Assembly: GCA_025352915.1 (NCBI GenBank)
Contig: JANXSA010000679.1
Span: 1 to 10,276 of the forward strand
Source: Rhodospirillales bacterium
GTDB lineage: Bacteria; Pseudomonadota; Alphaproteobacteria; Acetobacterales; Acetobacteraceae
DNA length: 10,276 nucleotides
Direction: 5' to 3'
How positions within the stretch are numbered: position 1 is the stretch's first letter; each line of letters starts with the position of its first letter. Below are positions 8,248-10,276 of this stretch, piece after piece. Under the pieces are notes generated by a model that did no database searches, was not told where the DNA came from, and saw only the letters and a program-made list of their open reading frames with translations. The position numbers were made by a program, and so were the translations under genes.

Positions 8248-8270
8248 TAGGCTAGGGGAACACGACCATG
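8248..8270 (+). promoter_or_regulatory. Ribosome site and possible -10 element for the LLM monooxygenase
   Basis: AGGGGAA (8254-8260) precedes ATG 8268 by 7 bases and supports that start. Just upstream, TAGGCT (8248-8253) resembles the TAGCCT element seen before the 7920 gene and could be a -10 box. No good -35 partner is visible, so the promoter part is weak. Confidence 0.35.
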
Positions 8271-9374
8271 GAATTCGGCTATTTCACAATGCCATCGCAT
8301 CCGCCCGAGCGGAGCCTGAAGGATGGGCATGACTGGGACTTGCAGACCTTTCGCTGGCTCGATGCGATGGGGTTTACGGAGATCTGGATCGGCGAGCATC
8401 ACACGGCACCGTGGGAGCCGCATCCGGCGCCCGATCTGCTGATCGCGCAGGCGTTGTTGCAGACCAAGCAGATTCGGATTGGACCCGGCGGCTTCCTGTT
8501 GCCGTATCATCATCCGGCGGAACTGGCCAACCGGGTGGCGATGTTGGATCACCTGTCCGGTGGACGGTTGAATTTCGGCATTGCGGCGTCCGGGCTGCCG
8601 AGCGACTGGGCGATGTTCAATGTCGACGGGATGAGCGGGGCCAATCGGGAGATGACCCGCGAGGCTTTGGCGATCATCCTCAAGCTGTGGTCCGAGCCGG
8701 CGCCGTGGGAATTCAAGGGCAAGTTCTGGACGGTGAACAAGCCGGAGATGATGTTCGGCTTCCTCAAGCCGCATATCGTGCCCTTGCAGCAGCCGCATCC
8801 GCCGATCGGGGTGGCGGGGCTGTCGAAGAATTCCGATACGCTGAAGATGGCGGGCGAGTTCGGCTATATCCCGATGAGCCTCAACCTCAATCCTGGCTAC
8901 GTGAAGAGCCATTGGGAGTCGGTCGAGGAAGGGGCGAAACGGTCGGGGCGGATTCCGAACCGGCGGGATTGGCGGCTGGTGCGGGAGATTTTTGTCGCGG
9001 ATACCGATGAAGAGGCGTGGAAGCTGGCGGTCGAGGGGCCGATGGGGCGGATGATGCGGGAGTATTTCCTGCCGCTGTTGTCGCAGTTCGGGTTCAAGGA
9101 TTTTTTGAAGCACCATCCGGATGTGCCGGATAGTGATGTCACGGTGGAGTATTGCGCGAAGCATAACTGGCTGATCGGCTCGCCGGAGACCGTCGCGCGG
9201 AAGATCGAGGCGGTTTACAACGATGTCGGCGGGTTTGGGCAGTTGCTGGTGTTCGGGTTCGACTATGTCGAGAATCCCCGCGCGTGGGAGAACTCGTTGC
9301 GGTTGATTGCCGATGAGGTGAAGCCGCGGACGGCGCATCTGGTGCCGAAGCCTTCGGTGATGGCGGCGCAGTAG
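8268..9374 (+). CDS. LLM-class (luciferase-like) flavin-dependent monooxygenase
   Basis: This 368-residue cytoplasmic oxidoreductase belongs to the bacterial luciferase-like superfamily, whose members use reduced FMN (or F420 in some lineages) and oxygen to oxidise a substrate in a TIM barrel. Family hallmarks include FGYFTMP at the first strand and GFTEIWIGEHHT (35-46), whose His pair matches the EHH of luciferase alpha and limonene monooxygenase-like enzymes. RIGPGGFLLPYHHP lies at about 70-83, and the signature LDHLSGGRLNFGIA at 93-106. The C-terminal block LIGSPETVARKIEAVY is followed by FGQLLVFGFDY. Length is usual (350-390). Many relatives are annotated as limonene 1,2-monooxygenase or alkanal monooxygenase, but the sequence does not define the substrate. 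No flavin reductase gene is adjacent, so reduced flavin must come from elsewhere. It ends before a strong hairpin and is convergent with the minus-strand gene. Confidence 0.92.
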   Translation: MEFGYFTMPSHPPERSLKDGHDWDLQTFRWLDAMGFTEIWIGEHHTAPWEPHPAPDLLIAQALLQTKQIRIGPGGFLLPYHHPAELANRVAMLDHLSGGRLNFGIAASGLPSDWAMFNVDGMSGANREMTREALAIILKLWSEPAPWEFKGKFWTVNKPEMMFGFLKPHIVPLQQPHPPIGVAGLSKNSDTLKMAGEFGYIPMSLNLNPGYVKSHWESVEEGAKRSGRIPNRRDWRLVREIFVADTDEEAWKLAVEGPMGRMMREYFLPLLSQFGFKDFLKHHPDVPDSDVTVEYCAKHNWLIGSPETVARKIEAVYNDVGGFGQLLVFGFDYVENPRAWENSLRLIADEVKPRTAHLVPKPSVMAAQ

Positions 9375-9387
9375 GCGGGACTGGGGC

Positions 9388-9429
9388 GGGGGGCTTCGGC
9401 TCCCCGGCCTTGGCCGGCGGTTATTGTTT
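9388..9429 (+). terminator. Hairpin terminator between convergent genes, UUCG loop
   Basis: GGGGGGC (9388-9394) pairs with GCTCCCC (9399-9405) around a TTCG loop: seven pairs including one G-U, closed by the very stable C(UUCG)G tetraloop. It is followed directly by CCGGCC-TT-GGCCGG (9404-9417), a second, mutually exclusive hairpin, and then a T-rich run, TTATTGTTT (9421-9429). It lies 13 bases after the monooxygenase stop and before the convergent gene's stop, so it may work in both directions. Confidence 0.7.
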
Positions 9430-9466
9430 CGATATCGTAATAAATAGATCGTGCGGCGGCGGCGCG

Positions 9467-10102
9467 CTAGATGGTGCGAAAAATGAAATTGAGGCCGGTT
9501 GGCAGGTGTACGCCGTCGATGGCGGGCTGGGAGGGTCTGGGCCGGAGTGTTGGGAGTGGCGGCGGGGGGATTTTGGCGGCGCGCGGTGGCTTGGGCGCGG
9601 GGGCATTTGGGGACTGAAAGACCGGAGGCGGGGTGACGCCGAGGAGGCGGCAGAGCGGGCGCAGGGGGCGGCCGACGGCGCGGGTCCAGTTCTGCGAGGC
9701 GGCGGCGAGGATGGCCTGGGTTTCTGGGTCGCGGAACAGGTGTTCGAGATGGGACATGTAGGCGGCGGCCCGGTAGCCGATGATGTGGACCAGCCAGGCA
9801 TGGCGGCGAGGGATGTAGGGCGCGGGCACGCCGTGGCGGCGGGTTGCACCGGGGTCGCGGACGGGATCGGGGCGCGCTTCGCCGAGGGGGCGGGCGAGCA
9901 GGGGGCGGGCGAGCAAGCGGGCGAAGCGGCGGCGCATACGGCTGATGCGGGTCCAGACTGGGAGGGCGAAGCGGCCGAGCAGGTGCTGGTGGGCGCCGAT
10001 GACGAGCAGGAGGCCGGCGAGGATCGCATCGATGCGGGCGGCCAGCGCCGCGGCCCTATGGGCCGGCGTCTCGGCCGGGGGGCGTGATGCGGGGTCGTTC
10101 AT
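9467..10102 (-). CDS. Unrecognised 211-residue protein with predicted LexA (SOS) control
   Basis: I cannot assign a known domain. From ATG 10102 the protein has a polar N-terminus, then one hydrophobic segment (about 27-50, including AILAGLLLVIG), which could be a membrane helix. An arginine-rich stretch follows (52-75, with RMRRRFARLLAR). A conserved-looking core at about 95-135 includes YIPRRHAWLVHIIGYRAAAY and HLEHLFRDPETQAIL, and a proline-rich tail runs from about residue 157. Minus-strand codons are strongly biased to C/G at the third position (GCC, CGC, CTC, ATC), supporting real coding and not the glycine-rich frame opposite. A TTG at 10138 is in frame, but it lies in the presumed -35 element, so ATG 10102 is preferred. 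A LexA-type operator overlaps the start, predicting induction by DNA damage. A 15-base tandem duplication adds an LLARP repeat. From memory, similar hypothetical proteins occur in Acetobacteraceae. A membrane-associated SOS effector is one speculation. Confidence 0.75.
   Translation of the reverse strand: MNDPASRPPAETPAHRAAALAARIDAILAGLLLVIGAHQHLLGRFALPVWTRISRMRRRFARLLARPLLARPLGEARPDPVRDPGATRRHGVPAPYIPRRHAWLVHIIGYRAAAYMSHLEHLFRDPETQAILAAASQNWTRAVGRPLRPLCRLLGVTPPPVFQSPNAPAPKPPRAAKIPPPPLPTLRPRPSQPAIDGVHLPTGLNFIFRTI
9886..9915. repeat. Two exact 15-base tandem copies inside the SOS-linked gene
   Basis: GGGGGCGGGCGAGCA occurs at 9886-9900 and again at 9901-9915, followed by a partial copy. On the minus strand it is in frame and yields LLARP twice within the arginine-rich region. 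Confidence 0.9.
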
Positions 10103-10111
10103 GTTATGTTC
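10097..10111 (-). promoter_or_regulatory. LexA operator (SOS box), alphaproteobacterial type
   Basis: On the minus strand the sequence reads GAACATAACATGAAC, that is GAAC-N7-GAAC; on the plus strand it is GTTC-N7-GTTC. This is the direct-repeat operator bound by LexA in Alphaproteobacteria, with both half-sites perfect and the N7 portion A/T-rich, as in known boxes. It overlaps the last two bases of the proposed -10 hexamer and contains the ATG start codon, an ideal position for repression. No second copy was seen elsewhere in the window. Confidence 0.75.
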
Positions 10112-10138
10112 TATACAGCGGGTGGCGGATGGGTGCAA
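10110..10138 (-). promoter_or_regulatory. Sigma70-like promoter of the SOS-linked gene
   Basis: On the minus strand TTGCAC (10138-10133) and TATAGA (10115-10110) are separated by exactly 17 bases. The -10 matches TATAAT at four positions and the -35 shares TTG. A start of transcription about 7 bases beyond the -10 would fall at or next to ATG 10102, so the mRNA may be leaderless. No Shine-Dalgarno sequence precedes the ATG, which fits. Confidence 0.55.
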
Positions 10139-10164
10139 GCGGGATTTTTGGCGGCATCGCGGTT

Positions 10165-10180
10165 GGGGCCGAAGAGCCCC
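10165..10180. other. Small GC hairpin upstream of the SOS-linked gene
   Basis: GGGGC (10165-10169) and GCCCC (10176-10180) can pair around a six-base loop. A competing GAGCC/GGCTC pairing (10174-10178 with 10186-10190) is possible. No T-run follows on the plus strand. It may belong to the terminator of a gene beyond the right edge that reads towards this one, or to an intergenic repeat. The stretch from 10139 to the window end contains no convincing gene. Confidence 0.3.
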
Positions 10181-10238
10181 CCTCCGGCTCCCCCCGCGAG
10201 CAGGGCTATTGCATGGGCCGGACGGCGTGGGTGTAGCA

Positions 10239-10276
10239 ACCCCTCACCCAACCCTCTCCCCCAAGGGGGGAGGGCT
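10239..10276. repeat. Palindromic pyrimidine/purine intergenic repeat, cut by the window edge
   Basis: A pyrimidine-rich run (10239-10262, including CCCTCACCCAACCCTC) meets its near-complement: CCCTCTCCCCC (10252-10262) can pair with GGGGGGAGGG (10265-10274) across AA. Sequences of this form (CCCTCACCC-AACCCTCTCCCC facing GGGGAGAGGG) are frequent dispersed intergenic repeats in many proteobacterial genomes. The right arm is incomplete here. Confidence 0.5.

Follow-up and report, generated by a model that had tools for sequence, protein, structure and literature searches.

A predicted LexA operator at the start codon of an uncharacterised gene belonging to a large dispersed family in the Acetobacteraceae

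The operator recognised by LexA in the SOS response of Caulobacter is GTTCN7GTTC, as given in the accessible portions of two reports (PMC12700426, PMC4211646), and the portion of the second also describes SidA, an inner-membrane protein of 29 amino acids which is an SOS-induced division inhibitor of that organism (PMC4211646). The repeat analysed here resembles the alphaproteobacterial LexA/SOS operator in being a direct repeat with a 7-base spacer that overlaps a promoter, and the same repeat occurs before lexA, recA and uvrA in the genome under study. It differs from the known operator in that it is found at the start regions of many dispersed members of an unnamed gene family, with an orientation that varies by genus. 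The gene that follows it can be likened to sidA by description only: its product is small and possibly membrane-associated and the gene is LexA-controlled, the control being predicted here, whereas the protein, unlike SidA, is 211 amino acids long, very basic, rich in Arg and Pro and encoded in many copies.

Integron cassettes, REP/RAYT elements and insertion sequences are present as many dispersed short units with a palindrome beside a gene. The present family shares with them the organisation of a dispersed short unit with a palindrome by the gene, but differs in that a transposase or integrase domain was not found in its product, its members occur as single copies in the loci seen, and each unit has its own promoter and putative operator. 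The window, which is the whole stretch of 10,276 nucleotides analysed here, belongs to a genome (G000) of 3.84 Mb in 749 contigs that is 69% complete. Membership of the window gene in a large family of dispersed copies is a weightier result than the reading of its operator.

The putative operator and promoter at the start of the window gene

The features of the window discussed below are as follows.

9467..10102, minus strand: family gene of 211 amino acids with its start ATG inside the operator; domain searches negative; dN/dS 0.33 against the orthologue in the sister genome G003
10097..10111, minus strand: putative LexA-type operator GAACATAACATGAAC (GTTC-N7-GTTC on the plus strand), retained by the orthologue and by other members of the family
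10110..10115, minus strand: -10 element TATAGA, separated from the -35 element by 17 bases, read by eye; layout found again in other copies; shares two bases with the operator
10133..10138, minus strand: -35 element TTGCAC, read by eye; layout found again in other copies
9427..9440, minus strand: core TTACGATATCGAAA of the 3' palindrome (in the gene's reading), 26 nt after the stop codon

The only GTTC-N7-GTTC in the window is GTTCATGTTATGTTC, at 10097-10111 on the plus strand, and the ATG of the gene (10102-10100, minus strand) falls within its minus-strand reading. A preliminary description of this DNA had reported a perfect repeat over the end of the -10 element and the start codon, and both half-sites are indeed intact; the span takes in the final two bases of TATAGA, the expected start of transcription (around 10103-10102) and the ATG. 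The promoter with 17-base spacing that was described directly upstream was read by eye as TTGCAC and TATAGA; an E. coli-type consensus promoter scan of 9380-10276 returned 0 promoters and left that of the window gene unlisted. Compared with this consensus, TTGCAC matches at three of six bases and TATAGA lacks the final T, and the promoter is accepted on the strength of the recurrence of this layout in other family copies. TAGAAC at 10113-10108 (minus strand) is an alternative -10 element. The TTG at 10138, suggested as a start by the list of open reading frames, was rejected since it is part of the -35 element, and the ATG at 10102 is therefore the likelier start. No Rfam match was obtained within 9200-10276. 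A repeat of intergenic regions, of the form CCCCTCACCCAACCCTCTCCCCCAAGGGG, lies at 10238-10276 of the window as well as upstream of L044 and L048, and is seen by eye near several family copies.

Several known SOS genes of G000 carry the same box. Perfect boxes are located upstream of recA (GAACATAGATGGAAC) and of lexA (GAACCTTTGTAGAAC; identity assigned by TIGR00498), the latter being preceded by a perfect box in all nine genomes of the genus. Further exact boxes occur before uvrA, with ssb divergent (both identities confirmed), and before a probable imuA, whose match to ImuA is weak (E 7e-11) and under the curated cut-off; the preliminary description had named recA, lexA and other damage genes as controlled by operators of this form. 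Among the 18 box loci of G000 that were viewed, most of the remaining boxes have no obvious SOS gene beside them and may be chance occurrences. Genome-wide, GTTC-N7-GTTC was counted against the reversed pattern as 68 versus 47 in G000, 112 versus 72 in G003, 92 versus 36 in G005 and 108 versus 53 in G028.

The box at 10097-10111 is very probably a working LexA operator, that is, a switch for DNA-damage (SOS) control. LexA bound there would sit over the -10 element, the start of transcription and the ATG of the gene at 9467-10102 and so repress it, and RecA-stimulated cleavage of LexA on DNA damage would free a transcript that the geometry predicts to be leaderless or nearly so.

Conservation of the box in family copies and the alternative explanations

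The preliminary description would have been contradicted by orthologues lacking the element; the orthologue in G003 (L002), whose protein is 91% identical to that of the window, has both half-sites and an altered spacer, a result in favour of the description. A census of the best matches to the window, covering 118 copies with a start region in 10 genera (6 more were left out), revealed an exact box near the start in 47 copies, 39 as GAAC-N7-GAAC and 8 as GTTC-N7-GTTC, and 71 copies without an exact box; 0.4 were expected from shuffles and a control repeat gave 0. Boxed copies were found in five of the 10 genera sampled, with the opposite orientation in two genera. By genome, they make up 10 of 18 examined copies in G000, 22 of 36 in G003, 4 of 18 in G005, 1 of 7 in G008, 1 of 2 in G028, 1 of 5 in G120, 5 of 5 in G122 and 3 of 4 in G123, and 0 in the other twelve genomes, which contributed 1 to 3 copies each. 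An alternative count for G000, 12 of 22, includes L043, whose box is distant, and L054, which is a weak relative, and 10 of 18 is preferable. The reversed boxes of G122 and G123, which belong to other genera, occupy the same place and end on the start codon. In the protein tree, built from 100 rows without G122 and G123, the GAAC-oriented boxes are confined to one half (38 of 60 rows, against 0 of 40 in the other); the label 'none' is unreliable for L140, where the domain start is misplaced, and the boxed half includes L016/L030, which have lost the box. In L042 and L156 the start codon lies at the end of another inverted repeat (CGAGAAT...ATTCTCG).

Conservation of the operator among relatives exceeds chance. 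Promoters were located with a matrix trained on boxed copies, the half-site columns being masked, and among the 41 that score at least 14, all eight half-site bases are present in 34 and seven in 5, the box being lost in the other 2 (L030 and L026). Across 23 close pairs, differences affect 2 of 184 half-site positions versus 26 of 115 spacer positions inside the box, with 91 of 322 in the spacer between -35 and -10, 26 of 138 in the -10 region and 23 of 138 in the -35 element, figures that serve as a guide, the pairs being hand-chosen, sharing lineages and not independent.

Part of this conservation may be due to the promoter and the coding sequence: TAGAAC fits TANAWC, the -10 form of Caulobacter according to the accessible portion of PMC12340889, and the ATG-AAC of most copies codes for Met-Asn. 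An explanation in which the conserved bases are nothing but promoter (TAGAAC as -10) and start (ATG-AAC), the spacing arising from a fixed leaderless layout and LexA playing no part, would agree with the 32 of 38 boxed copies whose box codon is usable as a start, but is unlikely to be correct. The box codon is unusable in the remaining six (L135, L137 and L150 reach a stop after three codons, L142 has ACG, and L139 and L151 are out of frame), and all six keep their half-sites intact, which follows from the choice of boxed copies, yet has no coding reason. Constraints of promoter, coding and layout also leave the flipped GTTC-N7-GTTC at the same place in G122 and G123 unexplained. Three GAACs at 11-base steps in L035 and L151, and the presence of the same repeat on recA, lexA and uvrA, likewise argue against such an explanation. 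L135, L137 and L150 (also L034, L036 and L139) have a purine-rich stretch and a second ATG some 50 bases downstream, and the real start may have shifted downstream in this subclade.

Copies from several genomes (L020, L005, L009, L008, L168, L171, L233 and L234) have a second, palindromic putative operator, AACTAAC-N3-6-GTTAGTT, between -35 and -10 in place of the LexA box. This pattern gave 15 forward and 15 reverse strand-hits in G134, with a control of 0, and 2 to 6 or none elsewhere, the 2 of G005 being equalled by 2 control matches. Of 16 distinct sites retrieved, 9 adjoin a frame recognised by the profile, with 2 more (L256, L272) beside diverged relatives as judged by eye. Such variation in spacing is unusual for a simple dimer site. 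The occurrence of the pattern at a similar place in other copies argues that at least one further regulator probably acts in the family, and could be held to favour control of the family by a repressor other than LexA with a similar recognition repeat; the boxed copies, however, match the LexA boxes of the organism at all eight half-site bases while their spacers vary, and control by such a repressor is very improbable.

A chance match is extremely improbable: with 0.23 boxes expected per window and at least one in 43 of 200 window shuffles, the window alone is insufficient to rule it out and the box taken alone is weak evidence, but its position and conservation make the evidence strong, the family comparison (47 of 118 copies boxed near the start against 0.4 expected, and the box kept in the orthologue) leading to rejection of chance, provided that the selection of copies is not misleading.

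The protein family, its shared unit and the 3' palindrome

The window gene, described earlier as uncharacterised, belongs to no known family at the thresholds used: its protein has no Pfam or NCBIfam match, and none of 14 relatives was matched in PHROGs, Pfam or PADLOC. No transposase, integrase or other mobility domain was identified in the product by Pfam and NCBIfam (for the window protein) or by PHROGs and PADLOC. Five PDB sequences retrieved by a profile search at E 0.02-0.16, including kindlin-3 and stress-induced phosphoprotein 1, were regarded as chance matches, and a word search of the open-licence literature returned nothing on the family.

Matches to the family number 22 in G000, 47 in G003 and between 3 and 24 in each of the seven remaining genomes of the genus. 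A profile search of the taxonomic family found it in 31 of 120 genomes and 24 of 102 genera, with at least 27 scored candidates in each of 10 of the 31 positive genomes. The members, in tens of copies, sit singly on the chromosome in the loci seen; tblastn for relatives on plasmids or phages gave no match, and viral contigs (one short pattern) gave none that was confirmed. The dN/dS values of sixteen close pairs range from 0.11 to 0.60, as under purifying selection, and the family members are therefore regarded as selected genes. The 93 database relatives have a median pI of about 12 and an Arg plus Pro content of 30%, and their most hydrophobic stretch lies at median residue 23, with 53% reaching 1.6 on the Kyte-Doolittle scale. 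Because it is very basic, Arg/Pro-rich and hydrophobic near the N-terminus, the product could, as a tentative guess, be induced by damage and act either on nucleic acid or at the inner membrane.

Close copies at non-syntenic places (L145/L152, L033/L136, L136/L149, L005/L020) align only from just before the -35 element to about 13-50 nt past the stop codon, that is, over 700-770 bases, whereas alignments between matching places of the two sister genomes extend over 1.5 to 2.8 kb. A discrete stretch is thus common to copies at unrelated places, as is expected of a mobile element. Family copies also recombine: the gene of L033 is closer to that of L136 (92% versus 86%) but its downstream flank is that of L149, and L037 joins an L145-like upstream flank to an L152-like downstream flank.

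At the place of L152, the gap between the flanking genes is 20 bases in G001, G004, G006 and G007, 106 in G002, 1,638 in G008 and 1,852 in G005, and in G003 about 2 kb with a family gene and another frame are present. Presence therefore varies, but a clean empty site lacking exactly the unit was not encountered, and about 2 kb differs at the one place examined closely. The window copy beside its neighbour gene (8268-9374) is present in G000 and G003 and absent in six other genomes that have the neighbour, a statement of presence and absence only, as the sequence beyond the neighbour gene differs between genomes. A repeat of about 50 bases (TTTTTTGGTTCTTTTTTTCAAAAAAGAAC), at 2747-2795 of L152, occurs at many places in the eight genomes searched.

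The palindrome around TTACGATATCGTAA is located at a median of 26 nt after the stop codon. Its 14-base core is matched at 10 or more positions in 63 of 101 copies, against 0 of 95 control windows; none was seen in the G122 and G123 copies. Several family-bearing genomes are strongly enriched in the element. Exact-pattern strand-hits, in which symmetrical sites count twice, were 44 in G000, 55 in G003, 66 in G005, 17 in G006, 25 in G026, 55 in G120, 7 in G028 and 0 in G123, and two genomes without family matches gave 5 (G009) and 1 (G011), with controls of 0 to 3. Among 20 further palindrome loci of G000, several follow a shorter or diverged relative with the N-terminal part in common, and at others a frame of this kind is absent. 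An intrinsic terminator was considered and rejected: the window stretch did no better than shuffles (z 0.38) and none of the palindromes has a U-run. On folding, the composite palindrome forms no structure and the symmetrical one a moderate structure (z -1.94). As the U-run is missing, a DNA site seems likelier than a terminator; a dif-like site was among the possibilities considered. By eye, neither this palindrome nor the AACTAAC operator has the form of the DriD site, ATACGAC-N7-GTCGTAT in the accessible portion of PMC12340889.

Implications for the damage response and for the family

A possible but doubtful interpretation is that the family constitutes a new class of dispersed SOS-inducible cassettes, the unit consisting of a promoter with its operator, a diverging gene and a 3' palindrome. 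Each would spread and recombine as a whole without a recognisable transposase and would be silenced by LexA, through a box in either orientation, or by a second repressor. If this interpretation is true, damage to the host would activate tens of copies together.

Although LexA boxes as such are familiar, 10 of 18 examined copies of one family in G000 and 22 of 36 in G003 are boxed here, and we know of no other bacterium with so many of its exact boxes in a single unnamed gene family. Because many copies have the same operator in the same place, damage would be expected to switch many of them on together, and if they are so induced, they would form a large unexplained component of the damage response of these bacteria. 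The family also provides a natural series for the study of how operators are kept, flipped and swapped among dispersed copies.
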